From the NCBI RefSeq assembly GCF_000826145.2, contig NZ_LN651335.1, positions 1 to 64,000 on the forward strand: a DNA stretch of 64,000 bases. The letters run 5' to 3'. Positions 11,082-61,327 of this stretch are shown here, in pieces. A model generated the notes under the pieces. The model saw only the letters and a list, made by a program, of their open reading frames with translations, had not been told where the DNA came from and made no database searches. The DNA is from Sporosarcina koreensis (GTDB taxonomy: Bacteria; Bacillota; Bacilli; Bacillales_A; Planococcaceae). The position numbers and the translations under genes are program-made. The first letter of the stretch is position 1. Each line of letters opens with the position of its first letter.

Positions 11082-11141
11082 ATGTCTGCGATCGATTATT
11101 GTAAAACCAATCTATAAAATTACCGCAGGATTCCTACTGCA

Positions 11142-11265: not shown

Positions 11266-11322
11266 GGTTTTCAAGGATTACCCATGCAAAATCAAACCAC
11301 GTGATGAAGCAGGTGCTTGTTA

Positions 11323-11667
11323 ATGAAGAAAGAACAGCGGATCAAGAAGAATGAAGAGTTCCAGAAGGTGTTCAAACAGGGGAAGTCGTTTGCGAACCGG
11401 CAGTTTGTCGTCTACGTGCTGCCGCAGCCGGATCGCACGGAGTTCCGGATCGGCCTGTCCGTCAGCAAGAAACTTGGAAATGCGGTGACACGCAACCGCA
11501 TCAAGCGGTACATCCGGCAGACGTTCCTCGAACTGAAGGACGAACTGCGGCAGGACCGTGATTATGTCGTCATCGCAAGACATCCGGCTGTCGATTTCGA
11601 CTTCCACGAAACGAAAAAGAGTCTGCAGCATGTGCTGAGGATTGCCCGTGTTCTGAAGAAGAAGTAG
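11323..11667 (+). CDS. rnpA: ribonuclease P protein component
   Basis: The 114-residue basic protein subunit of RNase P, which assists the catalytic RNA in removing 5' leaders from tRNA precursors. The conserved RNR block is seen in [21 protein letters not shown] lies two codons upstream, but the ATG at 11323 has AGGTG seven bases before it. It precedes yidC and jag, the usual Bacillales order. No clear promoter was found in the repeat-filled spacer in front of it. Confidence 0.96.
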
Positions 11668-11740
11668 AACAGGAAGATTCATCCGTGATACACTGTCACT
11701 AATCTGACTGAAAATTGTATAGAGATATGGGGGAACCAGA

Positions 11741-13308: not shown

Positions 13309-13317
13309 ATACAGTCC

Positions 13318-13354
13318 AACCGCCATGGCCCTCACCGGTCATGGCGGTTTTTTT
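13318..13354 (+). terminator. jag terminator
   Basis: The stem AACCGCCATG/CATGGCGGTT (13318-13349) is followed by a T-tract. Confidence 0.88.
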
Positions 13355-13420
13355 ATGAAAAAAGAATACGCTGCGGGTCTCCGGAAAGTGTATGGGCCGG
13401 ATTTCGGCCATTTTTTACAG

Positions 13421-13526
13421 TTATCCACAAAAAGTTCAATTCCCGCACTAGGACTTGGGCACGATTTGTGCTAAAATTTACTGTTAGAAAGTTACGCCCG
13501 GAAATAGGTTATGCACATGTGGATAA
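13421..13526. promoter_or_regulatory. DnaA boxes and possible promoter before mnmE
   Basis: TTATCCACA lies at 13421-13429. A head-to-head pair, TTATGCACA (13509-13517) and TGTGGATAA (13518-13526), abuts without a gap. Between them a possible extended -10 (TGC-TAAAAT, TAAAAT at 13472-13477) could start mnmE transcription. The boxes are exact matches; DnaA control of mnmE is inference. Confidence 0.6.
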
Positions 13527-13551
13527 CGACAGATCAGGAAGGTGAGACAGC

Positions 13552-14937
13552 GTGCAGTTTGATACAATCGCGGCGATTTCAACGCCGATGGGAGAAGGGG
13601 CGATCGCAATCGTCCGGATCAGCGGGGACGAGGCCGTCCAGATCGCCGACCGGCTGTTCCGGTCACCGTCCGGGAAGAAATTGGCGGATGCTGATTCCCA
13701 TACGATCCACTATGGTCATCTGGTGGACCCAGCGACGGGAGAGACCGTCGAAGAAATCATGGTTTCTATAATGAAAGCACCAAAAACATTCACGCGGGAA
13801 GATGTTGTGGAACTGAATTGCCACGGCGGACTTGTTTCCGTCAACCGGGTGCTGCGGCTCGTGCTCCAATTCGGCGCACGTCTGGCGGAACCCGGAGAAT
13901 TCACGAAGCGTGCTTTCCTGAATGGGCGTATCGACTTATCGCAATCGGAAGCCGTCATGGATCTGATCCGCGCGAAAACGGACCGTGCAATGAATGTCGC
14001 CCTCAATCAGATGGATGGCAAGCTGTCCCGCCTGATCGGGGACTTGCGGCAGGCGCTCCTCGAAACGCTGGCGCAGGTCGAAGTGAATATCGACTATCCG
14101 GAATATGACGATGTCGAAGAGATGACCATCCCGCTCATGATCGAAAAAGGGAATTGGGTGAAGACGCAGATCGAGCGGCTCCTCGCCACGTCTTCGCAAG
14201 GCCGCATTTTGCGTGAGGGATTGTCGACGGTCATCATCGGCCGGCCGAACGTAGGGAAATCCTCCCTGCTCAACAGCCTCGTCCAGGAAAATAAAGCGAT
14301 CGTAACTGACATTGCAGGGACCACTCGTGATATTATTGAGGAGTACGTCAATGTCCAGGGAGTTCCGCTGAAGCTTGTGGATACGGCAGGGATCCGGGAG
14401 ACGGAAGATCTCGTCGAACGGATCGGCGTGGAACGGTCCCGGCAGGTGCTGAAAGATGCGGATCTTGTCATTCTGCTGCTGAATGGGTCCGAAGCCCTCA
14501 CAGAGGAGGACGGGCGGCTGCTGGAGACCGTCCGGCCGATGGATGCGATCATCCTCGTCAACAAGACGGATCTGCCGCAGCAGCTCGATCTGGCGGATGT
14601 CCGTGCCCGCGCCGGGGACAAACCGATCATCACAGCATCCATCCTGCAGGACGAAGGGGTGGAAGAGCTGGAACAGACGATCGCCGGACTCTTCTTCGGC
14701 GGCGGCGTGGAAGCCCAGGATCCGACGTATGTATCGAATGAGCGCCACATCGCCCTGCTGCATCAGGCGAAGTCGGCAATCGAGGATGCGATTGCGGCAG
14801 CGGAAGCCCGCGTGCCGGTCGATATGATCCAGATCGACATCACCCGCACTTGGGAACTGCTTGGCGAAATTGTCGGGGATACCGTACAGGACAGTCTCAT
14901 CAACCAATTATTCTCACAGTTCTGCCTCGGAAAATAA
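13552..14937 (+). CDS. mnmE: tRNA modification GTPase MnmE
   Basis: A 461-residue GTPase that works with MnmG to add carboxymethylaminomethyl groups to the wobble uridine of certain tRNAs. A tetrahydrofolate-binding N-terminal domain (about 1-120) is followed by helices and an inserted G domain. The G domain shows [20 protein letters not shown] and NKTDL. The C-terminus is FCLGK, the catalytic cysteine motif. The start is GTG after GGAAGGTGAG. mnmG follows in 55 bp. Confidence 0.97.
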
Positions 14938-45672: not shown

Positions 45673-46080
45673 ATGTTAGGACCAGACAATATTGAATACG
45701 TTGTGGCTCATTTGGAAGAACGAGTGAACCCTGCCTTTGTCATTCTTTTCGGCTCTTACGCAAAAGGAACAGCGCACACAGACAGCGATCTGGATATTGC
45801 TTATTACTGTGAAAAGTTGTTATCTGGCTATGATCGTATGATGCTTGCTAATGAGTTGGCGGCCATTGCAGGATGCGATGTAGATCTCGTTAACTTACGA
45901 GATGCAGATACAGTTCTCGCCTTCCAAATATTCTCCACAGGTATAAAGATATCTTGTCGTGATACTGATGAATTCATCAAACAGCGTGTGTTGGCCTACA
46001 AAATGTATGCAGTCTTAAATGAGCAGAGAGCAGGCATACTCGAGGCGATTAAGCAGAGAGGAAGTGTATACGGTGAATGA
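45673..46080 (+). CDS. mntA: MntA-type antitoxin, minimal nucleotidyltransferase
   Basis: A 135-residue nucleotidyltransferase. The GSx10DxD signature is complete in GSYAKGTAHTDSDLDIA. In characterised MntA/HepT pairs this enzyme adds AMP units to a tyrosine of HepT and so neutralises it. Upstream in-frame GTG and ATG codons exist at 45640 and 45649. The ATG at 45673 has AAAGGAG nine bases before it and gives a family-like N-terminus. Base composition is clearly more AT-rich than the Nudix gene before it. It overlaps hepT by 8 bp. Confidence 0.87.
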   Translation: MLGPDNIEYVVAHLEERVNPAFVILFGSYAKGTAHTDSDLDIAYYCEKLLSGYDRMMLANELAAIAGCDVDLVNLRDADTVLAFQIFSTGIKISCRDTDEFIKQRVLAYKMYAVLNEQRAGILEAIKQRGSVYGE

Positions 46081-46468
46081 AGACATCATTTTAAATAAGG
46101 CGGCTATTATCGAATGGTGTACTTCCCGTATTCATGAAGTTTATGAAGGCAATCCTGCAAATTTGGCGGATTATACAAAGCAGGATAGTATCGTCCTGAA
46201 TATACAGCGAGCTTGTGAAGCTAGTATTGATTTGGCAATGCATATTGTCAGTGAGGACCGGTTAGGAATTCCGAAAGCCAGTCGGGAAGCTTTTGTACTT
46301 TTGCAGGATAATGAAATTATATCTAAAGAACTTGCTCAGAATTTGATTCGGATGATCGGTTTTCGCAATATTGCTGTCCATGATTATCAGGTGATCGATA
46401 GCAATATCCTTCAATCCATCGTAGAAACCATTTGGAAGACTTCAAAGCGTTCACCAGCCATCTGCTGA
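46073..46468 (+). CDS. hepT: HepT-type toxin with frameshifted C-terminus
   Basis: A 131-residue HEPN-domain protein, the ribonuclease toxin of the MntA/HepT system. The Rx4HxY motif is intact in RNIAVHDY, giving the catalytic R and H and the tyrosine that is AMPylated. The start is GTG with GAGAGGAAG eight bases before it. The last 13 residues (KTSKRSPAIC end) do not fit the family. In another frame the same DNA reads EDFKAFTSHLLKRL and stops at 46488, the expected ending. One base therefore seems lost near 46428-46433. The active site lies before the lesion. Confidence 0.82.
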   Translation: MNEDIILNKAAIIEWCTSRIHEVYEGNPANLADYTKQDSIVLNIQRACEASIDLAMHIVSEDRLGIPKASREAFVLLQDNEIISKELAQNLIRMIGFRNIAVHDYQVIDSNILQSIVETIWKTSKRSPAIC

Positions 46469-46532
46469 AGCGGCTGGATGGGCAGTAAGGAATTCCTCAA
46501 TATTTCATGTCTTTAGATGAGGAAGTGATTGA

Positions 46533-47270
46533 ATGAAAAAAGCAACAGGGTTCATCATCGGCATTGTGCTGCTGGCAGTCTCACTGCCTTGGGCGGGTCC
46601 GATGGCGCTCGAATATATCCATGACCAGCGGATGGACGGGAAGTACCGGTTCACTGACATTTCCGAAGGAGAACCGCCGACCCCTGCCTTGTACAAGTTC
46701 AACGGCCAGGAAATCACGATTGACGAAACGCCATTGGAGAAGCCTGAGTACATAGACCCGTGGGAGAATGAAATGTCGTTTTCCGATATAGCAGTCAAGG
46801 TGAACGGAAAAGAAATCGATCGGCTGCCGGCGTACCCCGTCCGATCGGAGCAAGAGGGCCTGAACCGCTATTTCGGAGATATTGCGTATTTCCTCGTGGA
46901 GGATAAGAAGGCGGGCGAGACTTCGTTTGTCCTGGCGCTGAAACGGACGAAAGAAACAATTTCCGCAAATGCAGAGGGAGACCATATCGGATGGGTGCCT
47001 GAAGAGGAACTGCAGTATACCTACTACAGGGTGAGTGATGCCGGGGACGTGACGCGCACCGACTTCGGGTATGCGGATCGGGATGGCTTTGAAACGAAAC
47101 TGCTGGCGAATGGCCATCTGGCGCCGACGTCAGTCGGATATTACACCGACCTGTGGCATGCCTATCCCTCTTTCTTCTTCCCTCTGTTACATCCGCTGCT
47201 GACGATGATTGCAGGCGGTATCCTGATTGTTTTCTGCTGGCCGTTCCGGAAAAAGAGAGCAGTCCAGTAA
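46533..47270 (+). CDS. hypothetical membrane protein
   Basis: A 245-residue protein I do not recognise. It has an N-terminal hydrophobic segment (about 5-27), a long hydrophilic middle and a C-terminal membrane helix (about 212-238) before a basic end (RKKRAVQ). The middle therefore probably lies outside the membrane. It contains many acidic and aromatic residues and no catalytic motif I can name. GAGGAAGTG precedes the ATG. It stands alone between hepT and the marR operon. Composition is intermediate. Confidence 0.7.
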   Translation: MKKATGFIIGIVLLAVSLPWAGPMALEYIHDQRMDGKYRFTDISEGEPPTPALYKFNGQEITIDETPLEKPEYIDPWENEMSFSDIAVKVNGKEIDRLPAYPVRSEQEGLNRYFGDIAYFLVEDKKAGETSFVLALKRTKETISANAEGDHIGWVPEEELQYTYYRVSDAGDVTRTDFGYADRDGFETKLLANGHLAPTSVGYYTDLWHAYPSFFFPLLHPLLTMIAGGILIVFCWPFRKKRAVQ

Positions 47271-47341
47271 GGACCGAGCCTATTTGGCACCGGTGGAGGT
47301 CCTTGCTGTCATTCTCTGTTTACCGACTCCCTGCAATCTTT

Positions 47342-47376
47342 TTATTGTTGCAAATACAACAATAAACACGTAGACT
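47342..47376 (+). promoter_or_regulatory. palindromic operator and promoter of marR-paiAB
   Basis: TTATTGTTG (47342-47350) and CAACAATAA (47357-47365) form a perfect 9-bp inverted repeat around CAAATA, typical in size for a MarR operator. A possible promoter, TTGCAA (47348-47353), 17 bp, TAGACT (47371-47376), overlaps its right half. Binding there would block transcription, suggesting autorepression. Confidence 0.65.
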
Positions 47377-47414
47377 ATAGTACAGCAGTTCATCTGCTGG
47401 CAGAGGAGGTCCGT

Positions 47415-48415
<1,001 letters not shown>

Positions 48416-48432
48416 ATGGGAGGCGGATTGAT

Positions 48433-49044
48433 TTGTATATCCCTAAACAATATAAGGTCGAGGACTTCAGGGAGATTGAAGAATTCATCCAAAACAACTC
48501 GTTTGGTACGGTTGTGACGACCGACCAAGGCAGACCGTTGGCAACTCACCTGCCTGTTCAGATGCATAAGCGCGGGGATGACTACTATATAACCGGGCAT
48601 ATGGCTCATACGAATCCTCAATGGAGGACTTTCCCGGATGAACAAGGAAGTGTTCTGGTCATGTTTCAAGGTCCCCATGCTTATATATCATCCTCCTGGT
48701 ACCAGTCTGAAGAAGTGCCTACTTGGAATTATCAAGCCATCCATGTATATGGCGCAGGCCGCATACTGAGTGAGCAGGAATTGCAGGAAGATCTGATGCT
48801 TCTATTGCAAAAATACGAGCAGGGTCGTAAAAATGCTGTTTTGTGGGAGACACTCTCCTCCCAGACAAAGAAGCAGATTGCCGGAATTGTCGGCTTTGAA
48901 GTGAAAGTGCAAGATGTCCAGGCTGCTTATAAATTGAGTCAAAATAGAAGTGCAGAAGATTATCATCATATCGTTTCTAAATTACATCAAGAAAAAGACG
49001 GAAATTCAAGATTAGTAGCAGAGGCGATGAAAGCTAGGATTTGA
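48433..49044 (+). CDS. paiB: FMN-binding protein PaiB
   Basis: A 203-residue split-barrel flavin-binding protein, the partner of PaiA. In B. subtilis PaiB was described as a negative regulator of sporulation and protease genes; the biochemical role is unclear. It begins MYIPKQYKVEDFREIEEF at a TTG codon with GGGAGGCGG upstream and contains PLATHLPVQ and ISSSWYQSEEVPTWNY, the family core. It follows paiA in 17 bp and is the last gene of the marR-paiA-paiB unit. Confidence 0.92.
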   Translation: MYIPKQYKVEDFREIEEFIQNNSFGTVVTTDQGRPLATHLPVQMHKRGDDYYITGHMAHTNPQWRTFPDEQGSVLVMFQGPHAYISSSWYQSEEVPTWNYQAIHVYGAGRILSEQELQEDLMLLLQKYEQGRKNAVLWETLSSQTKKQIAGIVGFEVKVQDVQAAYKLSQNRSAEDYHHIVSKLHQEKDGNSRLVAEAMKARI

Positions 49045-49114
49045 ATCGTCCAGCTTCCCACCGGCTGATTGTCGGTGGCTCAGGACACTCTTAAATAGCA
49101 AGAAGTCTCCATAC

Positions 49115-49150
49115 TAAAAGCACCCAGCCGCTTGCGTCTGGGTGCTTTTG
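49115..49150. terminator. bidirectional terminator after paiB
   Basis: A 12-bp stem AAAAGCACCCAG/CTGGGTGCTTTT (49116-49149) with A and T runs on both sides. It can serve paiB and the convergent gene at 49168. Confidence 0.88.
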
Positions 49151-49167
49151 GTATGCAGCTGCTCCTC

Positions 49168-49662
49168 TTATTGCCGGCACAGCACGACGATCCGGCTTGG
49201 GGTCGTCTGCGCCGGAATGCTGCGGGTCGTGCGGCTGTAGGTGACGATGAGGTCCCGGTTCGCGAGGCTGCCGTTGAACGGCTGGCCGTTCGGCAGGAAG
49301 ACCGGGGTGTCGTCGTCCAGCAGCAGCTGCAGGGAGCCGTCGCTGCTGATGAGCGACTCATCGAATTGCATGACCGCCGTGAACTGCCCGGGCATCTCTT
49401 TGCTCATGACGAGCGCGCTGTACTGCGGCGGGTAGATCAGGATGACCGGCGCATCCGCGTCATAGAAGCCCGTCACCGTGTCCCCCGGCATGACGACGGC
49501 CTGGTCGGTGAAATAGGTCGTCGGCAACGCGGTGAAGCGGACAATCTGATCCGTCGCCTGCTCGACGGTATAAATTTTATAACAGTCCGACTCCTGATGC
49601 TGCCCGATCGGCACGTCCTCGATATCCATGACAGTACCGGTGAACGATCCGAAATTCCCCAA
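49168..49662 (-). CDS. hypothetical protein
   Basis: A 164-residue acidic protein with no family I can name. It has no signal peptide and no membrane helix. Its sequence alternates short beta-type strands (GTVMDIEDVPIG, VVMPGDTVTGFYDADAP, VILIYPPQYSALVM), suggesting an all-beta fold. The start is TTG at 49662 with AGGAGG seven bases upstream. It ends at the shared terminator. Nothing in the neighbourhood points to a role: the PaiB gene is convergent and Ohr lies upstream on the same strand. Confidence 0.75.
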   Translation of the reverse strand: MGNFGSFTGTVMDIEDVPIGQHQESDCYKIYTVEQATDQIVRFTALPTTYFTDQAVVMPGDTVTGFYDADAPVILIYPPQYSALVMSKEMPGQFTAVMQFDESLISSDGSLQLLLDDDTPVFLPNGQPFNGSLANRDLIVTYSRTTRSIPAQTTPSRIVVLCRQ

Positions 49663-49745
49663 AACGATTCCTCCTGTGTCTTCATCTTGACTCCTCTTAC
49701 TATATGCACGGCTTGCCGATTGCGGAAGCCGCTTGCGCCGGCATG

Positions 49746-49774
49746 AAAAAAGAGCGGAAAGGGATCCGCTCTTT
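49746..49774 (-). terminator. ohr terminator
   Basis: The minus strand shows AAAGAGCGGA/TCCGCTCTTT followed by TTTT, 5 bp after the ohr stop. Confidence 0.88.
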
Positions 49775-49779
49775 CGGAT

Positions 49780-50202
49780 TTATTGCGCTTCCAAAGTGAC
49801 TTCGATGTTGTTCCGTGTCGCTTTCGAGTACGGGCACACTTGGTGCGCTTTTTCGACGAGCTCCTGCAGTTTGTCCTTCTCGATCCCTGTCCCTTTGACT
49901 TCGAGTTTGACGGCCAGTTTGAACCCTTGGTCAGCTTCGTCTTTCTGCAGGCTGACATTCGCTGTCACTTCGGAGTCGAACTTGACCTTCTCTTTGCCTG
50001 CGACCAGCTGGAGTGCTCCGTCGAAGCAGGCTGCATATCCTGCAGCAAACAGCTGCTCTGGATTCGTTGAATTCTCGAGTTCTTTGGCCCGTTTCGTACC
50101 GGGCATCGCTGTGTCAAAACTGACGACATTATCGGAAGACTGGACATGCCCTTCCCGTCCGCCTTTTGCGGTCGCTGTGGATGTGAATAGTGTTTCTGCC
50201 AT
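49780..50202 (-). CDS. ohr: organic hydroperoxide resistance protein (Ohr/OsmC)
   Basis: A 140-residue thiol peroxidase that reduces organic and fatty-acid hydroperoxides using lipoyl cofactors. The two catalytic cysteines are in YAACFDGAL and VCPYSKATR. The arginine and glutamate of the family lie near MPGTKRAKELENSTNPEQLF. The frame extends six codons upstream, but MAETLFTSTATAKGG at 50202 has AGGAG nine bases before it. No OhrR gene is adjacent; the MarR at 47415 belongs to another unit. Confidence 0.95.
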   Translation of the reverse strand: MAETLFTSTATAKGGREGHVQSSDNVVSFDTAMPGTKRAKELENSTNPEQLFAAGYAACFDGALQLVAGKEKVKFDSEVTANVSLQKDEADQGFKLAVKLEVKGTGIEKDKLQELVEKAHQVCPYSKATRNNIEVTLEAQ

Positions 50203-50369
50203 GTGATCACTTCTCCTCATCTTATCGTTTTTTGACGCTGTCCGTTCTATACCCGCTTTGCTTCCATGTTAAGCATCGTCAATCCTTGCTATAATGAAAA
50301 AATGCGAGAACCGCCGCTGATGTGGCGCGGCGGCTACAGTCTGTATCTAGAGAAAGCAGGGGAAATACC

Positions 50370-51569
50370 ATGAATAAGAAAGACATTGCTGCAATCCGCA
50401 AGCAATTTAAACCGGAGGCCGATCTGCTGACGATCCAGGATATCTACAACGTCTACGTGCGCCAGGAGAGCAGTGAGATCTATCATGAAGAAAGCCAGGC
50501 GTTCGAGCTGCTCGACCGTGACCGGCAGGAACTGTTCCTGACGAGTTTCAAGAAAGTGCTCGGCGGCAAGCTTGCGATGAAGCTGTTCGAAGTCCGCTTC
50601 GCACCTGTCCAGGAAGGCCAGCGGAACCATACCCAGCAGCTGCTGTACGCTGGTCTGCATGCGGCAGACGCCGACGGTTGGCGCCGGGAGATGCAGCTGA
50701 TCGCCGAGAAGATGGTAGCGGATGCGCAGCATGAGAAGGATCTCGTCATCACCTTCATCCGCGGGCAGTACTTCAAGCCGACGCATTCGAAGGACGACCT
50801 GGAAGAGCGTGAGATGGGCGAGCGGGACGAAACGTATACGACGCCGTTCATCCTCTGCAGCCTGAACCATACCGAGCTGCCGAAGCCGTCGCTCATCTTC
50901 GACTTCACGGGCAGGGAGTTCAAGTCGAGCGAACTGGCGGACCCCGTCGTCAAACTGGCCTCACCGGTCGGCGGCTTCCTGTTCCCGTGCTTCACGGACA
51001 ATGCAGCAGACGTAAACCATATCCTGTATGCGGCCGGAAAGGTGAACAAGCCGGATTACGCCTTCATCGAAAACGTGCTCGACGGCGAGGAGATCATGAC
51101 GGCGGAGGACGACAAGGCGGTGTTCGAGGAGATCGTCAGGCAGGTCGTCGGCGACGAGGTGAATACACAGACACTGGCCGGTGTGTACGATGAACTTCAT
51201 AGGATGACGACGGTGGAAGAAGAGGATGAGGAGGCCGACTACGTGCCGGTGCTCGACTCGAAGGAGATCGAGCGTGTGCTGAAAGTGAGCGGCATCGAGG
51301 ACGTCGACACCGAGAAAGTGCGCGAGGCGTTCCAGACGATTGTCGACGATGAGGCATACGAGCTGAAAGCGAGCCACGTCGTGCCGAACTACAATACGAA
51401 ATCCATCAAGATCAGCACGAAAGTCGCCAACATCTCCATCAGCCCTCAGGACCTGAAGTATGTGAAGCAGGTCAACGTCGACGGCAAACGCTGTATTCTG
51501 ATCGAGGTGGAAGAAGATACAATGATCGAAGGGTTCACGCTGCTGGAGGAAGAGCTGTTCGAGTCGTAA
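50370..51569 (+). CDS. DUF4317 protein
   Basis: A 399-residue soluble protein of the DUF4317 family, of unknown function. It is strongly acidic (for example TTVEEEDEEADYVPVLD near the middle) and has no catalytic motif I can name. It begins MNKKDIAAIRKQFKPEADLL, matching family members, and lacks a signal peptide or membrane helix. AGGGGAAA precedes the ATG at 50370; the open frame upstream is unlikely to be coding. It stands alone on the plus strand, divergent from ohr. Confidence 0.85.
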   Translation: MNKKDIAAIRKQFKPEADLLTIQDIYNVYVRQESSEIYHEESQAFELLDRDRQELFLTSFKKVLGGKLAMKLFEVRFAPVQEGQRNHTQQLLYAGLHAADADGWRREMQLIAEKMVADAQHEKDLVITFIRGQYFKPTHSKDDLEEREMGERDETYTTPFILCSLNHTELPKPSLIFDFTGREFKSSELADPVVKLASPVGGFLFPCFTDNAADVNHILYAAGKVNKPDYAFIENVLDGEEIMTAEDDKAVFEEIVRQVVGDEVNTQTLAGVYDELHRMTTVEEEDEEADYVPVLDSKEIERVLKVSGIEDVDTEKVREAFQTIVDDEAYELKASHVVPNYNTKSIKISTKVANISISPQDLKYVKQVNVDGKRCILIEVEEDTMIEGFTLLEEELFES

Positions 51570-51679
51570 TTCAATGAAAGTCTGCGATGCCGGTACGATT
51601 CTACAGAAAATGCGGAGCAGAGCGGAGCCACAAGCCAGACTTTTGACTTGCTGTCTTTTCTGCGCGGCGCGTTTGTGAA

Positions 51680-51780
51680 GTTATGAGCGATGGGCGGTGG
51701 TTTATGAGCGGAAACCTGAGTTTATGATCACTTTCGCTGCTTTATGAGCGTTTTGCAAGATTTATGAGCAGCTCTCACGA
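51680..51780. repeat. 20-bp-period tandem array with TTTATGAGC core (array 3)
   Basis: Five units begin at 51680, 51701, 51721, 51741 and 51761. Each has the core TTTATGAGC(G) and a variable 10-11-bp half. The middle unit is degenerate (TTTATGATCA). Read on the minus strand the core is CGCTCATAAA, so it shares CGCTCA with the arrays at 37701 and 61374. The spacing is regular to the base. It lies between the DUF4317 gene and the terminator of the importer operon. Confidence 0.82.
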
Positions 51781-51823
51781 TTCTCTATTTGTGCCGCTCC
51801 GGACATACGCGTGCAACCGCAAT

Positions 51824-51867
51824 AAAAGCCGCCCCGCCACCTGGTTATACAGGCGGCAGGGCGGCTT
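51824..51867 (-). terminator. terminator of the peptide importer operon
   Basis: On the minus strand an AAGCCGCCCTGCCGCCTG arm pairs with CAGGTGGCGGGGCGGCTT and is followed by TTATT. It lies just after the substrate-binding gene stop. Confidence 0.85.
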
Positions 51868-51872
51868 ACTTT

Positions 51873-53684
51873 CTATTCCTTGCGGTAGGCTTCTAAGAAC
51901 TCGTTTACTTGATTTGGATCAGCAATCAGCTCATTGCCTGTATCGACGAGCGGGCTGAGCGTGGAATATGCTTTTTTCTTATTGCCATGGTAGTAATTTA
52001 AGAACTCATCTTGGTTGATGGAGAACAAGATCGCTTTGCGCAAGTTCTCGCTGTCCGAGACGGTTCTGCCAGTTGTATTGAACTGTAAATAGGTGACGGC
52101 ATTGCTGTCGCTCTTTTGCAGCAGCAGGTTATCATCTTTTTCGACGAGGTCATACTTCGTTTCGGGAACTCCGTTGAACAGGTGGATTTCTCCGTTTCGC
52201 AATGCAGACAGCGCACTGTCCGCGTCTTCGATGAACCGTACAGTGACAGCCGGGATCTTCGGTTCAAATTCACTTCCGGCACGGTATGCGGGGTTCTTGA
52301 CGAAATCAGCTTGGTAATCGTTTTTCTTCACAAGGATGTAAGGCCCGCTTGCATACAGTTGGTTATTGTAACCGGCGCCTTCCGTTACTGTGCGCTGATC
52401 ACCGTAAGGAATGTCTTTGTCCACATCGAACGAAGCTACGTCATATGTGTTGATGTTTTTCACTTGCTTCTCCGATACGATGCCGGCAGATTGGTGAGCC
52501 AAGTAGTTCAGCACTTGCGGGAATGGCTCGGTTGTTGTGACTTTCACGACTTGGTAGCTGCCTTTGCTGTTGTCCGCTTTCGTTTTGTCATCGACCAGTT
52601 CTGACACTTTGGTGTCCAGTCCGTCTTCGAGAGCTGCTTGAACGGTTTCATCGCTGCCGGAAACGGTCGCTTTTTCCAGCTCACTGAGATCTGTTACGAT
52701 TTCTGCATTTTTAATATGTTCATGCAGGCTGTATGTCCGGTGATCCGGAACGGAGTCTTTGTCTTTTGCGCGATTCAGCGAGAATACAACATCCTCTGCT
52801 CCGACACGTTCTCCTGTATCGACCGCTTTTCCATCTGAGACGGCTGCAAAGTTAATGTCATTGCGGAGGAGGAAGTAGTAGTCGGAATTCCCTTCTGCCA
52901 TCGCAAAGTTATAAGAAAGTGAACCGTCCGGCACCACTTTATCGTCATCTGTCAAATTGACCAGGCGTACGTACATATTCGTGTTCAGAGTATTGATGGA
53001 ACCGTCGTTTCCTTTGATCGGGTCGAGCGATGTTAAGTCGCCGATCGCCTGCTGTGTCACGAGCGGTTCAGTTGCCCGTTTGGCTGTGTCATTGAAGTCG
53101 ATCGTTTCCCAGGCGATTGCACGTGATTTCGCGAGGCGGACCGTGTCGGGGTTCAAGACCATCTTATTGACGCCTTGCGCCTTAAACGAGTTATAAAGCG
53201 GAGCGATATAGGCCTTTTCTGCAACAAGCCGCTGTTCCAGCTGTTTGTACGAGTTCGTGTATTCATCCACGGTTTCTGTACTTGCCTGCTCAATCAGTTC
53301 ATCGGCTTTTTCATCGTCCACGAGACTGTTCGCTCCATCGGATTTGAATAACGCACGAACTGCATAGTCTGGATTCCCGGTCACTGTCGTCCAGCTGGAT
53401 AGGGCGAGGTCATAGTTGCCGGCTTCCTGCTGGGCTTTGAATGTGCCGTAATCGGGCTGGATGTTCAGCTTTACGTCGAATCCATTCTTAATGAGCTGGT
53501 CGCGCACAATGTTCAGGTCTTCCTCACCTGACCCCATTCCGAGAACCTCGATTTTCACTTTCTCTTCCGGTCCGACTTTGGTGTCGGTGTCTTTACCTTC
53601 TTTTTCCACTTCTGATTTCGTCTGCACGCACCCTGCCAGCACAAGAACGAGCAGCAATGCGAGTGATAGTAATTTCTTTCCCAT
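51873..53684 (-). CDS. peptide ABC substrate-binding lipoprotein, circularly permuted
   Basis: A 603-residue lipoprotein (lipobox VLAGC, C19) of the SBP_bac_5 peptide-binding class, in an unusual domain order. Residues about 43-197 (VRDQLIKNGFDVKLNIQPDY, YDLALSSWTTVTGNPDY, EKAYIAPLYNSF) match what is normally the C-terminal end of DppA/OppA proteins. Residues about 203-603 (LTSLDPIKGNDGSINTLNTN, VGAEDVVFSLNRAKD, RKAILFSINQDEF) match the normal N-terminal and middle parts. The protein stops at DPNQVNEFLEAYRKE, where a normal protein would continue into the segment found here at the front. The order fits a circular permutation; both lobes look complete. GGAGGG precedes the ATG. Confidence 0.87.
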   Translation of the reverse strand: MGKKLLSLALLLVLVLAGCVQTKSEVEKEGKDTDTKVGPEEKVKIEVLGMGSGEEDLNIVRDQLIKNGFDVKLNIQPDYGTFKAQQEAGNYDLALSSWTTVTGNPDYAVRALFKSDGANSLVDDEKADELIEQASTETVDEYTNSYKQLEQRLVAEKAYIAPLYNSFKAQGVNKMVLNPDTVRLAKSRAIAWETIDFNDTAKRATEPLVTQQAIGDLTSLDPIKGNDGSINTLNTNMYVRLVNLTDDDKVVPDGSLSYNFAMAEGNSDYYFLLRNDINFAAVSDGKAVDTGERVGAEDVVFSLNRAKDKDSVPDHRTYSLHEHIKNAEIVTDLSELEKATVSGSDETVQAALEDGLDTKVSELVDDKTKADNSKGSYQVVKVTTTEPFPQVLNYLAHQSAGIVSEKQVKNINTYDVASFDVDKDIPYGDQRTVTEGAGYNNQLYASGPYILVKKNDYQADFVKNPAYRAGSEFEPKIPAVTVRFIEDADSALSALRNGEIHLFNGVPETKYDLVEKDDNLLLQKSDSNAVTYLQFNTTGRTVSDSENLRKAILFSINQDEFLNYYHGNKKKAYSTLSPLVDTGNELIADPNQVNEFLEAYRKE

Positions 53685-53715
53685 CGATGAATCCCTCCAC
53701 AGTAGGTAGTTGTAA

Positions 53716-55212
53716 TCAGTCAAGCTTCGGGTCGAGTGCATCGCGCAGCCCGTCTCCTAAAAAGTTGAAGGAGAGGACGAGCAGGATGATCGCTAGTCCC
53801 GGGAAGATGGCGAGGTACGAATTGGTCTCAAGATATGCACTTCCGACTTTTAAAATATTCCCCCATTCGGGGATGTGGGGCTCTACGCCGAGTCCCAGAT
53901 AACTCAAGCTGCTCGTCGCGATGACGGCCCCGCCGATGGTCAGTGTCGACTTGACGATCATCGGTGCAAGCGAGTTGGGGACGACCTGTTTGAACAGGAT
54001 GGCGAAATTCGATTCGCCGAGCGCCTTCGCCGAATCCACGAAGTCGTAATTGGAGACCATGAGGACGTTCGCCCGCATCGTACGGGCATAGGTCGGGATG
54101 GCGCCTACACTGAGGGCGATGATCAGATTGACCGTATTCGCGCCAAAAGCCGCAATAATTGCAATGGCCAGCAGGATGCCCGGAATGGAATACAGGATAT
54201 CGAGCAGCCGCATGATCCAGTTATCGACATGATTGCTGTAGTAGCCGGCAATGGCGCCTAAAAATCCGCCGATCACACCCGGGAGAATGGTGGCTGCAAA
54301 CCCGACGAGCAGGGAAATTCTCGCTCCGAACACAATTCGCGAAAACACATCCCGCCCGAAATTATCTGTTCCGAATGGGTAGGCAGCGCTCGGCGGCTGC
54401 AAAATCGCACTGTAGTTATTCTCCACGGCGAGCGCATAATCGAATGTAAACCGGCTCGTAATGGAGATCGCCAGCATCAGGAGGATGAAAAACATGCCGA
54501 GCATCGCGGTCGAGTTCCGTGTGATCTTTTCCCACATGACGTTCCACTTCAGCATTCGCGATCGATCAGAGCTCCTCGTTTTCATGAGGAGAGTCCATCC
54601 TAAAAGAAGGGCGAATAAGTTTCCGGTTACAGCACTGGCCAGCAGCAAGAGCGCCACCCAAGTCATCCAGCGAGGCGCCTCATACTCCTGTACATGGCGA
54701 ACGACCAAGATGAGTACGGCGAGATAGAAAACCCCGATCAGCAGGAGAGTTCCCATGGACGGTAAAAAGGTATCGCTGACATAAGGTTTGAATAGATTCA
54801 CCGCGCTGATGGCGAGCACCGTAAACTGTGTCAGCAGCGTATACGCCGCAAACGTATATTCCACAGACTTTTTCGCGTTGATTAGATTGAAAGCGAAAGC
54901 CCCTGCGAAAATGTTGCCGGCTGCGAGACTTACGAGCTGGACATAGCCAAGACGTCTCGTGGCTGGTGGAATGACACCCGTCTGGAGCAGATCTTTCTTC
55001 ATCTTCCGAGTGATGTACACCTGAAAACAAGTAGTCGCTGCCCAGACGCCGAACAGGCTGAAGGCAAAGGGGTGTATATCGCCGGTCTTGAACGAAATGC
55101 TGTTCCAGAGAAAGATCCCTGTAAGGACGAGCGACAGAACCCACGTGAAATTCGCTTGCGTGTATTCCGTGGAAACGGCTAACGAATGACGTTTCCGTAT
55201 TGTTTTTTTCAT
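53716..55212 (-). CDS. peptide ABC permease (DppC-like) with N-terminal membrane module
   Basis: A 498-residue permease. The C-terminal 285 residues are a normal DppC/OppC unit: GTDNFGRDVFSRIVFGARIS, the EAA loop YDFVDSAKALGESNFAILFK and ending FNFLGDGLRDALDPKLD. In front lie about 215 residues with six hydrophobic segments, absent from ordinary DppC (about 300 residues). I do not recognise the extra module. The ATG at 55212 has AGGTG seven bases upstream; another ATG at 55230 overlaps the preceding stop. It is the second gene of the minus-strand operon. Confidence 0.88.
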   Translation of the reverse strand: MKKTIRKRHSLAVSTEYTQANFTWVLSLVLTGIFLWNSISFKTGDIHPFAFSLFGVWAATTCFQVYITRKMKKDLLQTGVIPPATRRLGYVQLVSLAAGNIFAGAFAFNLINAKKSVEYTFAAYTLLTQFTVLAISAVNLFKPYVSDTFLPSMGTLLLIGVFYLAVLILVVRHVQEYEAPRWMTWVALLLLASAVTGNLFALLLGWTLLMKTRSSDRSRMLKWNVMWEKITRNSTAMLGMFFILLMLAISITSRFTFDYALAVENNYSAILQPPSAAYPFGTDNFGRDVFSRIVFGARISLLVGFAATILPGVIGGFLGAIAGYYSNHVDNWIMRLLDILYSIPGILLAIAIIAAFGANTVNLIIALSVGAIPTYARTMRANVLMVSNYDFVDSAKALGESNFAILFKQVVPNSLAPMIVKSTLTIGGAVIATSSLSYLGLGVEPHIPEWGNILKVGSAYLETNSYLAIFPGLAIILLVLSFNFLGDGLRDALDPKLD

Positions 55213-55226
55213 AGCTTTCACCTGCC

Positions 55227-56648
55227 TCATGAATGGTCAATCTTCGAACGGATACGCGGGTCCAGCAATGCGTACAAAATATCGATCACTAAATTGACCA
55301 GCGAAATAGTGATGGCGACGTAGACGACACCGCCCATGATCGCCGGAATATCGGGGATGAACTGCTTGTCGACGATGTAGCTGCCGATCCCCCGAATGTT
55401 GAACACTTTTTCTGTTACCGCCGCTCCCCCGAGCATGCCGCCAAATAATAGTCCGATCACGGTGATCACAGGAATCATGGCGTTCCCGACAGCGTGCTTC
55501 CACAGCACCTGTCCGTAAGCCAAACCTTTTGCCCGGGCTGTAATGATGTAGTCTTCATTGATGATCTCCAGAAGGGAGGAGCGCATCATTCTCGCGATGG
55601 AAGCGGTAAGCGCGGTTCCAAGCACGACAACAGGCATGATCAGTGAAAGCGCATGCCCGGGGCTGTAGGTCGCCGGCAGCCAATTCAAATGAATGGAAAA
55701 CCCGAGGATGAAGATCAGCCCCTGCCAGAAGTTCGGGATCGACAGCCCGATCAGCGCGACGAACATGAACGAATAATCCAGGAACGAATTGGGCCGCGTT
55801 GCAGATAGGATCCCCACAGGAATCGCAATCACAATCGCCATGATGACGGAAAACAACGCGATCGTTAACGTGACCGGAAACTTGTTGGAAATACTGGCTG
55901 CCACATTTTCATTCCCCGCGAACGAAGACCCGAGATCGAACGTTGCAATTCCTTTCAAAGCGTTCCAGAGCTGCTGCCAGTAGGACAAATCGAGCCCATG
56001 CAATCGGTTGAAATTCGCAATTTGTTCCTGCGTTGCCGATTCTCCTAAGATGTTGGTGGCCGGGTCGAACGGAGAGACATAGAGAATCGTAAAGACCAGA
56101 ACGGCAACTCCGATGATCACCCCTATGCTTTGCAAAAGCCGCTCTGTGATATAGAGGATGAATGGATTGCTCATCAGGAACAGCAGTACATACATGAAGA
56201 ATCCGGGAATCAGCGAAACGATCAAAAATGCAGGGTTCCGAAGAAGCGATTGAAAGTACGTAAAGTACGTCTCCTTTTGCCTCCCCATCTGTGTGAGCTG
56301 CATCTCACTGAGCCGCTCACTCTCTGCGGTCAGTTTTTCATCTGCCAGCTTCTCTGCTTCCCGGTGTATGTCAGCCGAGCTGACGTTTTCACCGAAAAAT
56401 TTCCGCTTCCGTTCAAGCTGATCCTTGTACTCCTCCAGCCATTCTTCCTTCCGCCCCTCGTCCGCCAGTTGTACCCTTGCAGCGTTCAGCATGCTCGAGT
56501 ACTGCCGGTCTTTTCTATTCCATATATAACTGCAATACGTGAAAAGATGGAGAGGCAGTCCGGCCAGCAGCAAAAGTACTTGGTAGGCGGTATGGCCCCT
56601 GGCTTTCTTATAAGAGCGTTCAAAAAGCGAAATTACTGTGCGTGACAT
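55227..56648 (-). CDS. peptide ABC permease (DppB-like) with N-terminal extension
   Basis: A 473-residue permease. The last 300 residues or so are DppB-like: YVSPFDPATNILG, GLDLSYWQQLWNALKG, the EAA loop IINEDYIITARAKGLAYGQV and ending YALLDPRIRS. The first 165 residues are additional: a membrane segment at about 20-40, a charged, probably coiled-coil stretch at about 45-115 (many E, K, R), and another membrane segment at about 130-155. Ordinary DppB has about 310-340 residues. GGAGGTG lies five bases before the ATG at 56648. It is the first gene of the operon. Confidence 0.88.
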   Translation of the reverse strand: MSRTVISLFERSYKKARGHTAYQVLLLLAGLPLHLFTYCSYIWNRKDRQYSSMLNAARVQLADEGRKEEWLEEYKDQLERKRKFFGENVSSADIHREAEKLADEKLTAESERLSEMQLTQMGRQKETYFTYFQSLLRNPAFLIVSLIPGFFMYVLLFLMSNPFILYITERLLQSIGVIIGVAVLVFTILYVSPFDPATNILGESATQEQIANFNRLHGLDLSYWQQLWNALKGIATFDLGSSFAGNENVAASISNKFPVTLTIALFSVIMAIVIAIPVGILSATRPNSFLDYSFMFVALIGLSIPNFWQGLIFILGFSIHLNWLPATYSPGHALSLIMPVVVLGTALTASIARMMRSSLLEIINEDYIITARAKGLAYGQVLWKHAVGNAMIPVITVIGLLFGGMLGGAAVTEKVFNIRGIGSYIVDKQFIPDIPAIMGGVVYVAITISLVNLVIDILYALLDPRIRSKIDHS

Positions 56649-56693
56649 CCAATTCACCTCCTTCATATTGTTTAATTCCGATTGGTATACTAA

Positions 56694-56722
56694 ACTATAG
56701 GATATACACTATTGATTGTCAA
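56694..56722 (-). promoter_or_regulatory. promoter of the peptide importer permease operon
   Basis: On the minus strand TTGACA (56717-56722), a 17-bp spacer and TATAGT (56694-56699). The spacer and -10 area contain GTATAC-like repeats that may be an operator shared with the divergent ATPase gene. Confidence 0.8.
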
Positions 56723-56769
56723 TTTTATCTTTTTGAATCATCAAGTATGACAAAAGGAGCGTATTCATA

Positions 56770-58509
56770 ATGGAATCGATTTTAAAAGTGAGGAACTTGC
56801 ACGTTTCATTCACGGGACGACAGAAGGACTTCGATGCTGTCCGCGGGGTCAGTTTCGAGGTCGGCAAAGGAGAAACACTGGGTATTGTGGGCGAATCAGG
56901 CAGTGGGAAAAGTGTAACAGCTCGTTCTATCATGAGGTTGCTTCCGTCTCCGCCGTCCTATGTAAAAGAGGGAGTAATTGAGTTCCAAGGGGAAGATCTG
57001 AGTTTGAAAACGGAGAAGGATATGGAGAGCATCCGTGGCCACGGCATTGGCATGATTTTTCAAGACCCGATGACCTCATTGAATCCAACAAAGAAAATCG
57101 GAGGCCAAATCGCCGAAAGCATAGTGAAACATATGAAAGTGTCTAAGAAAGAAGCGAGGAAGGAGACGATCGAGCTCCTTACATTAGTCGGTATCCAAAA
57201 CAGCGAGGAACGGGTGGACCAATACCCGCATGAGTTCTCAGGAGGCATGCGTCAGAGGGTGATGATTGCGATGGCACTCGCCTGTAAGCCCGCCCTGCTG
57301 ATTGCGGATGAGCCGACCACCGCATTGGACGTCACGATACAGGCACAGATTTTATCGCTCATGAAAAGTATTCAGCAGCGCTTCGGCACTTCGATCATCC
57401 TCATTACACATGATCTCGGCGTCGTGGCGGAGATGTGCGACCGCGTTGTCGTGATGAAAGAAGGAGAGATCGTGGAATCCGGCACTGTTTTTGAATTGTT
57501 CGAGAGTCCGAAACATCCTTATACGAAACGATTGTTGAATGCACTGCCCCGGTTGGATGACAAAAAGAAAGAGAAACGGGTGCCGCAGCTGCGGGAAGGG
57601 ATGGACCGGGCTGTCCCGCTTGTCCAAGTGAACTCGCTCCAGCAGCATTTCGGAAACGGCAAAAAAGGGGTGACGAAGGCAGTGGATGATATCAGCTTCC
57701 ACATACGCCCTGGAGAAACACTTGGACTGGTGGGGGAATCCGGTTCAGGGAAATCCACGACAGGCCGGGCAATCCTCCGGTTAACCGAGCCTACCGCCGG
57801 TGAGGTGCTCTACCAAGGAATGGGCATCAGCCGATTTTCTGCAAAAGAGATGAAAGCGATGCGGCGGCATATGCAGATGATTTTCCAAGACCCGTATTCG
57901 TCTTTGAATCCGCGATTCAAAGTGCTGGATATAATCGGGCAGGCACTCGATATCCATCGATTGAGCAAAAGCAAACAAGAGAGGAAGAAACGGGTGGAGG
58001 ATCTTCTCGTGATGGTAGGGCTGGAACCGGAACACGCCATGCGGTATCCACACGAATTCTCGGGCGGCCAGCGTCAGCGGATCGGTATTGCCCGAGCATT
58101 GGCAGTAGAGCCGGCTTTCATCGTATGTGACGAACCCCTTTCCGCACTCGACGTATCCATTCAGGCGCAGATTGTGAAATTACTCGAAGATTTGCAGCAT
58201 CGACTCGGCCTTACGTACTTGTTCATTGCACACGATTTGTCGATGGTGAAACATATCAGTGACCGTGTGGCTGTCATGTACGCCGGCAAGATTGTCGAGT
58301 TGGCGGAAAGTGAAGAGCTGTATACCAACCCGCTCCATCCCTACACAAAGTCTTTATTGTCCGCAATCCCGATACCCGACCCGAAACTGAGAACAGCCCC
58401 TCATCAGGCGGCAGGTAAAGACTCGGCAGTGGAAAGGATGTTTGATGTAACCAATACAGTGTTAGTGGAAGTGAAGGAAGGGCATTGGGTTGCGAAACCG
58501 GATGGCTGA
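56770..58509 (+). CDS. fused two-domain peptide ABC ATPase (DppD-DppF)
   Basis: A 579-residue protein with two complete ATPase domains, equal to DppD and DppF joined. First domain: Walker [14 protein letters not shown], signature [16 protein letters not shown] and Walker [13 protein letters not shown]. Second domain (from about 285): Walker [14 protein letters not shown], signature [15 protein letters not shown] and Walker [13 protein letters not shown]. The oligopeptide C-terminal tail motif [16 protein letters not shown] is present. AAAGGAG precedes the ATG. It is divergent from the permease-binding protein operon, with which it should form one importer. Confidence 0.93.
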
Positions 58510-58587
58510 TTCCCATGCCGTCCGGTCCCTAAGGTAAGGGGGACTGGAGGGATTATAGGGAATCAGACGCCATCTCGAACATCTCCC

Positions 58588-58616
58588 TTTTGTATCTCCT
58601 CGAATTAGTCTATAAT
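58588..58616 (+). promoter_or_regulatory. possible mqo promoter
   Basis: A perfect -10 TATAAT (58611-58616) with a poor -35 (TTTTGT, 58588-58593) at 17 bp. Downstream a GTTCC/GGAAC hairpin sits in the leader before mqo. Confidence 0.4.
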
Positions 58617-58753
58617 TGGTAGGGTAAAGAACGTATATTCATTAACTGATCGCTCCCAATAGATTCGAGTGAGGAACAGCAATACAAAAGAGGTAGTTCC
58701 TTGAAAAGGAACCTGTCTCTCTTTTGCAAATTCAGTGTGTAAGGATGGGTCAA

Positions 58754-60319
58754 ATGAGCAACGGAGAAACGAATACAGACGTGATTCTGATTGGCGCAGG
58801 CATCATGAGCGCAACGCTCGGCACGATGCTGAAGGAGCTGGTGCCCGAGTGGAACATCACCGTGTTTGAAAAATTGTCGGAGGCCGGCGAGGAAAGTTCG
58901 AACGAATGGAATAATGCCGGAACCGGACACGCGGCCTTGTGCGAGCTGAACTATACGATCGAGCAGGAAGACGGTTCCGTCAACATCAGCAAAGCCATCA
59001 ACATCAACGAACAGTTCCAGGTGTCGAAGCAGTTCTGGTCGTTCCTCGTGGACAACGGACGGCTGCACAATCCGGAGGACTTCATCCGCCCGCTCCCGCA
59101 CATGAGTTTCGTGCAGGGCAAGGACAATGTCTCCTTCCTAAAGAAGCGTTATGAGACGATGAAGCAGAATCCGCTCTTCGACGACATGGAGTATACCGAA
59201 GACCCGGAGACACTCGAAAAATGGGTGCCGCTCATGATGAAGGACCGGGCGTCGGAGGAGCCGATCGCCATTTCCAAAATCGATGCGGGGACCGACGTCA
59301 ACTTCGGGGCACTCACCAACATGCTGTTCGACCATCTGGAACGCGAAGGTGTCCATGTGGAATACCGCCGCAGCGTGGAAGGGCTGAAGCAGAAGAGCGA
59401 CGGCCGCTGGGAAGTGAAAGTGCGCAACCTGGTCAGCGGGGACGTGCAGCGTCATACCGCGAAGTTCGTGTTCATCGGAGCCGGCGGCGGAAGTCTGCAT
59501 CTGCTGCAGAAATCCGGCATTCCGGAAGGCAAAGGCATCGGCGGCTTCCCGGTGAGCGGACTGTTCCTCGTCTGCAACAATCCGAAAGTGGCGGAGCAGC
59601 ATTATGCGAAAGTGTACGGAAAAGCGTCAGTCGGCGCGCCGCCGATGTCCGTTCCGCACTTGGACACACGGTATATCAATAACCAGAAATCCCTCCTGTT
59701 CGGTCCGTTCGCAGGCTTTTCACCGAAGTTCCTGAAGACCGGCTCGATGATGGACCTGATCACGTCCGTCAAACCGGGCAACGTCGTCAACATGCTGTCG
59801 GCCGGCGTCAAGGAGATGGCACTGACGAAGTACCTCGTCGAGCAGCTCATGCTGACGAAAGAGCAGCAGGTGGAAGAACTGCGTGCGTTCGTGCCCGATG
59901 CGAAAGTCGACGAGTGGGACACCGTCGTTGCAGGCCAGCGGGTGCAGGTCATCAAGGAGACCGAAGCCGGCGGCAAAGGGACGCTCCAGTTCGGGACGGA
60001 GCTCGTCAGCGCGAAAGACGGCTCGATCGCAGCCCTTCTCGGCGCCTCGCCGGGTGCTTCCACAGCGGTCCATGTCATGATCAACCTGCTGAACAAGTGC
60101 TTCCCGGACCGGGCGGACGAGTGGCAGGCGAAATTCAAGGAAATGATTCCGTCGTACGGCATCAAGCTGGCGGAGAATCCGTCGATGCTCCATGACGTCA
60201 AAGATGCGACGGCCAAGACGCTGAAGCTCGATCACATGGAACCGTTCATGATGGATCGCCAGCCGGAAGCGAAAGCGATCGCAGACGGCCAGAAATCGGC
60301 CGATACCGTCGATCGATGA
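58754..60319 (+). CDS. mqo: malate:quinone oxidoreductase
   Basis: A 521-residue FAD enzyme at the membrane surface that oxidises malate to oxaloacetate and passes electrons to quinone. The FAD fold is [18 protein letters not shown], followed by [32 protein letters not shown] and [13 protein letters not shown] are family blocks. An upstream open stretch adds ten codons, but [14 protein letters not shown] at 58754 is the natural start, with AAGGAT close by. It is a single-gene unit with its own terminator. Confidence 0.96.
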
Positions 60320-60324
60320 ACGGC

Positions 60325-60368
60325 AAAACGCCTGTCCGGCTCGCCATGAGGCCGGAGAGGCGTTTTTT
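60325..60368. terminator. mqo terminator
   Basis: AAAACGCCT (60325-60333) pairs with AGGCGTTTT, with a GGC/GCC inner stem, and ends in TTTTTT. It may also serve the convergent gene. Confidence 0.88.
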
Positions 60369-60381
60369 CATCTGACGGACT

Positions 60382-60714
60382 TCACTCAGGCGGCTGGATC
60401 TCCTGGAACTGGACGTCCTTCAATTTGCCGGTCTCGGTCAAATACGTGACACGGACCACAACGGCATATTCGCGCCCCCGTTCGCGCAGCCAGAGGCGGA
60501 ACGATTCTTCTGTAACGTCGTCTTTCTGATGGCTGCCCATATATAAGTAGTCGATGATCTGCGCGTCCGGATAGTGCGCCTGTGCCCGCTGAATGGCGAG
60601 ACGCGACCATTCTGCATAGCTCGGGGTTCCGGCTTCCATGAAACCGACGGCGGTCAGAGGCTGGGATGCATGCGGAAGAATGAACAGGATAACGGCGAGG
60701 GCAAGTTTCATCAT
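60382..60714 (-). CDS. exported DUF3889 protein
   Basis: A 110-residue protein with an N-terminal signal peptide (KLALAVILFILPHASQPLT) and a DUF3889 domain like B. subtilis YqzG and YhdC. The core reads YAEWSRLAIQRAQAHYPDAQ and RLWLRERGREYAVVVRVTYL. The function is unknown; the fold probably binds something at the cell surface. AGGTG lies seven bases before the ATG at 60714; a TTG one codon earlier is also possible. It is convergent with mqo. Confidence 0.82.
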   Translation of the reverse strand: MMKLALAVILFILPHASQPLTAVGFMEAGTPSYAEWSRLAIQRAQAHYPDAQIIDYLYMGSHQKDDVTEESFRLWLRERGREYAVVVRVTYLTETGKLKDVQFQEIQPPE

Positions 60715-60814
60715 CAATAGACACCTCGTTTTCCTGTAGGATGCACCGGCGGGCGGAAACTATCCCGCCCGTAAGAAAATGGGTTGGACATATTTAGCGA
60801 AAGAGGTGGCGAGA

Positions 60815-61327
60815 TTGCCGATTACAATTGTGCAGGAGAACATGCCGTCATCAGGAAGGACAGTCTATTACAAGTCATCGCTTGGGATCCTGGAAATCAC
60901 CGGGACGGACGAGGCGGTGTCCTCGGTGCTGTTCCTGGAGGATGAACCGCCGGCTGATGTCCCGGCAGCGGAAGACGCACCAGCAGCTGTGGCCGAGTGC
61001 TTGCGCCAGCTGGATGAGTACTTCGCCGGCACCCGGACGGACTTCGATGTGCCGGTGACCGTGAACGGTACCATCTTCCAGCGGGCTGTCTGGCAGGCGT
61101 TGACGGACATCCCATACGGAGGGACGGCTTCGTACGGGGACATCGCAAAAGCGGTCGGCAGTGAACGGGCGGTGCGAGCCGTCGGGGCCGCCAATGGAAA
61201 GAACAAACTGACCCTGCTCCTGCCCTGTCACCGCATCATCGGCAAGAACGGCACGCTCACCGGCTACGCCGGCGGCATGTGGCGGAAAGAATGGCTCCTC
61301 GCGCATGAACAGAAGCATAAGAAGTGA
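60815..61327 (+). CDS. ogt: methylated-DNA-[protein]-cysteine S-methyltransferase
   Basis: A 170-residue suicide repair protein that removes alkyl groups from O6-alkylguanine. The acceptor cysteine is in LLPCHRIIG, and the DNA-binding helix region is QRAVWQALTDIPYGGTASYG with AVRAVGAANGKN. The start is uncertain. The frame opens at 60779 without a ribosome site. I took the TTG at 60815, which has AGAGGTGG five bases before it. The ATG at 60842 (AGGAG close by) is also possible. Confidence 0.92.
   Translation: MPITIVQENMPSSGRTVYYKSSLGILEITGTDEAVSSVLFLEDEPPADVPAAEDAPAAVAECLRQLDEYFAGTRTDFDVPVTVNGTIFQRAVWQALTDIPYGGTASYGDIAKAVGSERAVRAVGAANGKNKLTLLLPCHRIIGKNGTLTGYAGGMWRKEWLLAHEQKHKK

Follow-up and report, generated by a model that had tools for sequence, protein, structure and literature searches.

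An SBP_bac_5 lipoprotein with apparently circularly permuted order and its extended permeases in Sporosarcina koreensis

Can a solute-binding protein of an ABC importer carry its usual end at its beginning, and if so, is the importer around it altered as well? The question is raised by a lipoprotein gene of Sporosarcina koreensis in the window, by which we mean the whole stretch of 64,000 nucleotides of DNA analysed here (Table 1). The original prediction, made from six quoted sequence blocks, read the product as a peptide-binding lipoprotein of family 5 (SBP_bac_5) that had been circularly permuted, with a joint near residues 195-205. All six blocks are present and in the order given, and GGAGGG lies upstream of the ATG of the gene at 53684.

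Table 1. Features of the locus, with coordinates in the window
Feature	Coordinates	Strand	Basis
Flanking DUF4317 protein	50322-51569	+	
SBP_bac_5 lipoprotein, apparently permuted, 603 aa + stop	51873..53684	-	ORF, Pfam, alignment, AlphaFold model
Residues 208-603, N-terminal-to-middle segment of classical members (DppA up to ~367)	51876..53063	-	Profile matches
Joint of old C-terminus and old N-terminus, ~residues 199-207	53064..53090	-	Exact limits inferred from last and first strands
Residues 43-199, C-terminal segment of classical members (DppA from ~372 on)	53088..53558	-	Profile matches
Val101, position of DppA Asp436 (precursor numbering)	53382..53384	-	Invariant 47/47
Signal peptide and lipobox, residues 1-19	53628..53684	-	Cys19 invariant in 47 aligned sequences
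OppC-type permease, 504 aa	53716..55230	-	PF00528, PF12911
OppC N-terminal extra region, residues 1-225, partly hydrophobic	54556..55230	-	No Pfam match above cut-off
OppB-type permease, 473 aa from start 56648	55227..56648	-	Pfam; start choice by AAGGAGG
OppB N-terminal extra region, two extra hydrophobic segments with a charged stretch between	56154..56648	-	No Pfam match above cut-off
Conserved 32-base motif TATACTATACCnATCGGAATnATnCAATnTAA, spanning the expected OppB transcription start	56663..56694	-	51/56 operon loci
Promoter-like site TTGACA-17-TATAGT, 11/12, sigma-A-like, upstream of OppB	56694..56722	-	
Fused OppD-OppF type ATPase, 579 aa, divergent	56770..58509	+	Pfam, NCBIfam
Flanking malate:quinone oxidoreductase	58724-60319	+	

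First, the two parts of the protein match the family in the reverse of its usual order. As a whole, the protein scores 138.3 bits against the Pfam profile PF00496 (curated cut-off 32.4) in two stretches, but the end of the profile precedes its start: residues 205-603 align to profile positions 14-259 (E 1.3e-32), whereas residues 25-203 (53075-53612), scanned alone, align to positions 301-367 with E 1.4e-7 and 31.4 bits, 1 bit below the curated cut-off. Taken separately, then, the front segment falls on the end of the profile and the rear segment on its start, as the original prediction would have it. The same arrangement emerges from a classical profile of 526 positions, built from 21 classical relatives, all of them found by similarity either to the window protein or to its profile (one duplicate, L002, was dropped), on which residues 43-177 correspond to positions 365-507 and residues 214-585 to positions 53-340. 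Among the NCBIfam models, all of them below their cut-offs, residues 68-173 are covered by OppA positions 413-518, and residues 234-352 by DppA positions 57-167. Along the permuted chain as aligned with PDB chain 3tpa, using a profile of 47 sequences (the window protein and 46 homologues of 41-96% identity), residues 220-315, 437-569 and 58-176 match 3tpa 21-112, 180-310 and 373-494. When every one of these 47 sequences is placed on the classical profile, with matches to signal peptides left out of the order count, the order is swapped in all of them, the front segments starting at positions 359-384 and the rear segments stopping at 335-359, and in the profile positions that they cover the two pieces are complementary, without overlap.

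A rotation scan leads to the same result by another route. Turning the permuted profile back into the usual order at the cut points raised the best single-domain score for each of the 21 classical targets, the summed best single-domain scores rising from 994 bits as found to about 1572, on a plateau between about residues 183 and 423 that shows the order but not the exact joint. Thus rotated, the profile spans the old junction as one domain in Escherichia coli DppA (229-498), OppA (229-515), GsiB (185-480) and NikA (184-494), and the cut site comes to lie at about 367-371 of DppA, between a helix and a strand. Considering that both segments are homologous to the family, that their order is swapped and that nothing sizeable has been lost, we regard it as highly probable that the window protein is a circularly permuted SBP_bac_5 (cluster C) solute-binding lipoprotein. 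This core of the original prediction, including the place that it assigned to the joint, is supported by the profiles of the family, by sequence matches in the PDB and by the rotation scan, and likewise by a confident structural model and by conservation over many species.

Second, the joint is of fixed length and the structural model is confident. Residues 170-225 comprise exactly 56 amino acids in all 47 sequences, with Arg188 and Trp192 invariant. To judge from the alignment and the model, the old last strand (around AWETIDF) would be followed by about nine residues and then by the old first strand, a joint so short as to imply that the old termini lie close together in space. The AlphaFold2 model, computed from permuted sequences only and without templates, reached a pLDDT of 85.6 and a pTM of 0.81; over residues 41-180, 11 of 14 ten-residue blocks have a pLDDT of at least 90, the lowest being residues 101-110 at 78. 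Compared with the PDB by Foldseek, it matched 53 chains with E ≤0.001 (best 3.7e-12), of which the best 50 are family-5 type binding proteins by title; the alignments cover part of the chain, and the TM scores, at most 0.53 of the target among these best 50 of 53, are probably low because the method is sequential. Modelled alone, the first segment gave a poor result (pLDDT 66.1, pTM 0.34), which fits a part that is no domain by itself but is not positive proof. In the arrangement that we propose, the usual last third would now follow the lipobox, the old C- and N-termini would be fused by a joint of fixed length, and the new termini would lie in the loop between the helix ending near DppA 367 and the strand starting near 372.

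Third, the partners of the protein are themselves unusual. OppB-type and OppC-type permeases and two ATPase domains are linked to the lipoprotein gene, as in importers of the Opp/Dpp type; for OppB, the start at 56648 is preferred over the ATG at 56666 because of the AAGGAGG at 56657-56663. A hydropathy scan finds 7 segments in the OppC and 8 in the OppB of the window, as against 4 in DppC and 5 in DppB of E. coli. The neighbourhood was compared over 59 loci of at least 7 kb (L033-L089, L122 and the window; L058 and L084 are the same contig), in 56 of which the permuted gene is matched over at least 480 residues. In all 56, OppB and OppC stand beside it, and in 55 the ATPase does so too, divergent from the rest; on a Treponema contig, which ends before the ATPase, the gene order is another one. 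Ten short partner frames in seven of the loci (L034, L038, L056, L057, L066, L070 and L081) reflect frame breaks, a contig end or a shorter form, and the OppC of genome G151 is 114 amino acids shorter. Two of three further loci, both from genus g27, probably Staphylococcus (L142 and L150), keep the operon layout, while in the third (L144; G863, 6892-13792) the ATPase is found between OppC and the binding-protein gene and shares their strand; its longest matching frame has only 327 amino acids and is thus apparently not fused. No Rfam family was matched at gathering score within 46000-61000.

What would such a rearranged protein do? An ordinary binding-protein mechanism in a dedicated importer is likely: the permuted protein would still close on its ligand like other binding proteins, and the ligand would then be delivered to the adjoining importer of extended OppB, extended OppC and OppDF-type ATPase. 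Beyond this, we take the segment now at the front to lie in the other lobe in classical members, in which case the lipid anchor would have moved to a segment of that lobe, so that the lipidated end might dock differently, and the permeases with their extra membrane parts might have evolved together with the relocated anchor. It is possible, though we would sooner doubt than assert it, that the permutation is functional in this sense, carrying the anchor to the opposite lobe and giving rise to a new importer architecture in which the tethered binding protein would be held or gated by the extended forms of OppB and OppC; that relocation of the tether was the cause of the permutation we put forward just as tentatively. 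For both the tether and the co-adaptation steps the basis is co-occurrence, and common inheritance of a single operon explains that as well. A competing reading, on which we would wager neither way, holds that the swapped order is neutral for function and has nothing to do with the additional parts of the permeases. Normal function is common among permuted proteins. The permuted TpMglB-2 binds glucose, according to the available part of the paper describing it (PMC4990184), and a single inherited operon would account for the co-occurrence without a functional link. The fixed length of the joint is a point against neutrality, as is the absence of any extended OppC without the permuted protein in 398 genomes of the same class: used alone as query, the OppC extra region picked out 34 of these, the very 34 with a full-length permuted protein. 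In three g27 genomes, only the last part of the OppC extra region was matched. Across 398 genomes of the phylum, the searches with the permuted protein and with the OppC extra region again returned the same 4.

As to its history, the gene was probably duplicated in tandem, the copies being fused in frame and each end then trimmed, all before the sampled lineages split. This is close to the duplication and end loss of the original prediction, although the analysis turned up neither a fusion intermediate nor an unpermuted sister accompanied by the same permeases. A 1166-residue open frame in genome G068, considered as a fusion intermediate, proved to contain two separate, adjacent classical family-5 genes (L149:3576-7073). 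A variant of this explanation, compatible with the swapped order, is that another family-5 gene supplied the first segment. The authors of the TpMglB-2 study, in the part of it available, raised the same possibility for their protein (PMC4990184), and here the two pieces rank classical relatives differently, L138, for example, reaching 45.0 with the first segment as against 22.5 with the second; yet the pieces are complementary, with no overlap in profile positions, and DppA, OppA, GsiB and NikA each align with the rotated profile in one piece through the junction, and we deem a chimaera of this kind unlikely.

Fourth, the nature of the ligand has to be reconsidered. We take Asp436 of DppA to anchor the amino group of the peptide and, with Arg383, to hold the peptide; both residues are named as mutated in the title of a PDB match. 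In the alignment, Val101 takes the place of Asp436 and of its counterpart in OppA, which makes the adjective "peptide-binding" of the original prediction doubtful, and Arg383 falls opposite a gap of seven residues in the permuted protein. A grip on the free amino end of a peptide like that of DppA or OppA is therefore unlikely; GsiB and NikA, binders of other solutes, likewise have no Asp at that position. For the partner proteins, the best NCBIfam model is GsiA for the ATPase (644 bits, cut-off 1077), GsiD for OppC (271 bits, cut-off 484) and nickel-type Opp2B, also below its cut-off, for OppB (275 bits), while, among the one-domain models for Opp and Nik ATPases, several exceed their own cut-offs on the fused ATPase.

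Overall, the promoter region holds no more sigma-A-like sites than shuffled sequences do. The conserved motif starts at the last base of the promoter's -10 element and, by a matrix built from 29 of 30 chosen loci (score threshold >12), recurs from Sporosarcina to Paenibacillus, with L058/L084, L066, L070 and L081 lacking it, as do the further loci L142, L144 and L150. Among 30 genomes, 23 have the motif, once each and every time with the permuted gene about 3 kb downstream of it, and the backward control matched once; of the seven motif-free genomes, G075 lacks the operon and six possess it. Other sites in the genome of the window itself carry 3 mismatches and hardly exceed the control (3 versus 2). 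The motif may be an operator. Could the operon then be part of the CymR cysteine regulon and take up glutathione or another sulphur compound? The promoter site, with its GGAATT, resembles sites of the Rrf2 type, and the best models for ATPase and OppC are those of the Gsi system, but their scores lie far below the cut-offs, OppB leans to the nickel type, and the motif occurs once per genome, at the operon of the permuted protein, being absent from the cysK-like gene of the same genome, which leaves the link to the regulon unsupported; we judge this reading very improbable. The available portions of PMC9239247, PMC3519770, PMC2869319, PMC11487621 and PMC3828012 gave no usable CymR consensus save one cysK site of Bacillus subtilis.

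Fifth, the permuted order is kept across many species. Within a set of 201 genomes, that of the window included, 166 show some match and 55 carry 56 full-length permuted copies; the own genus contributes a full-length copy in 31 of its 67 genomes. Among the 398 genomes of the same class, 35 matched (34 at full length and one remnant), and of the 398 genomes of the phylum, 4 passed 1e-50, the window included. Named records, 37 loci retrieved with the window protein as query and hence biased to close kin, come from Sporosarcina, Bacillus, Cytobacillus, Neobacillus, Rossellomorea, Lederbergia, Paenibacillus and a Treponema metagenome-assembled genome. The protein of G151 (genus g27) is 41-43% identical, and a fragment on a Staphylococcus aureus record is 75% identical to it but only 46% to the next rows outside g27, on which ground g27 is probably Staphylococcus. 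That a normal gene merely looks permuted through an assembly error, a frameshift or a genome-specific fusion, such as do occur in draft genomes, found no specific support here and is rejected as vanishingly improbable, because independent genomes carry the same order: all 47 aligned sequences show it, and they stem from many different assemblies, some of which are single-contig genomes.

In the tree, the Paenibacillaceae stand together (99/96) beside Bacillaceae rows, and the Sporosarcina rows are found at several separate points, suggesting transfer; very long branches lead to L070 (G151) and to L066 (Treponema), the placement of L066 being weak (80/58). Only remnants of the permuted gene persist in L082 (G040, residues 233-291) and L143 (G831, profile 392-602), suggesting that the operon decays in some lineages. 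Two records deserve mention for themselves. The S. aureus plasmid unnamed2 (L121, NZ_CP077929.1) bears an incomplete operon with an unannotated binding-protein gene near a type I restriction gene, and operon parts are repeated on this contig in inverted order, perhaps an assembly artefact. In L043 (NZ_JADHDX010000017.1, "Arthrobacter beigongshangensis"), the protein groups with Sporosarcina, and it looks as though the organism was misnamed or the assembly is a mixture. The single annotated full copy examined here is called simply "ABC transporter substrate-binding protein"; generic names of this sort can hide permuted cases.

Finally, the apparent permutation can be set beside known systems. 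The original prediction was aware of no natural permutation described in this class: this stands for family 5, for which the open-licence PMC papers, in the portions available, yielded no description, but not for binding proteins at large, as a natural circular permutant of cluster B, termed "Type Ic / Cluster Bc", is known in TpMglB-2 (Tp0684) of Treponema pallidum, where the first three strands of one lobe have moved to the end (PMC4990184). By the accessible part of that account, TpMglB-2 resembles the window protein in being a binding protein of an ABC system that is tethered by a lipid, is naturally permuted and has relatives among both treponemes and Gram-positives, and it differs in belonging to cluster B, in binding sugar and in its cut site (PMC4990184). 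The other class and the other cut site make the two cases independent events; the window protein shows no cluster B sugar-binding fold, its Pfam, PDB-sequence and best 50 of 53 Foldseek matches all being to SBP_bac_5. What makes the locus valuable is that altered permeases occur together with a member of a large binding-protein family that was permuted in nature and has persisted through deep divergence. Nature thus provides a case on which to test whether ABC import depends on where the lipid tether sits; the TpMglB-2 authors, in the text available, raised this question but did not answer it when suggesting tethering as a possible reason for the permutation (PMC4990184). Should relocation of the tether prove to be the cause, permutation would be a recurrent evolutionary solution in tethered ABC importers, TpMglB-2 being the independent case. 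The E. coli GsiABCD system shares with the window the fused two-domain ATPase and provides the best NCBIfam scores for ATPase and OppC, but these stay below the curated cut-offs and GsiB has the normal order; the GsiC model matches only from OppB residue 171 and the GsiD model only from OppC residue 227, which suggests that GsiC and GsiD are without the extra N-terminal regions. With the cluster C proteins DppA, OppA, GsiB, NikA, HbpA and AppA, the window protein has in common both parts of the profile, the lipoprotein form, partners of the OppBCDF type and, over the part of the chain that Foldseek aligned, the predicted fold, and it departs from them in its permuted order, in the Val at the position of DppA Asp436 and in the seven-residue gap in place of Arg383.
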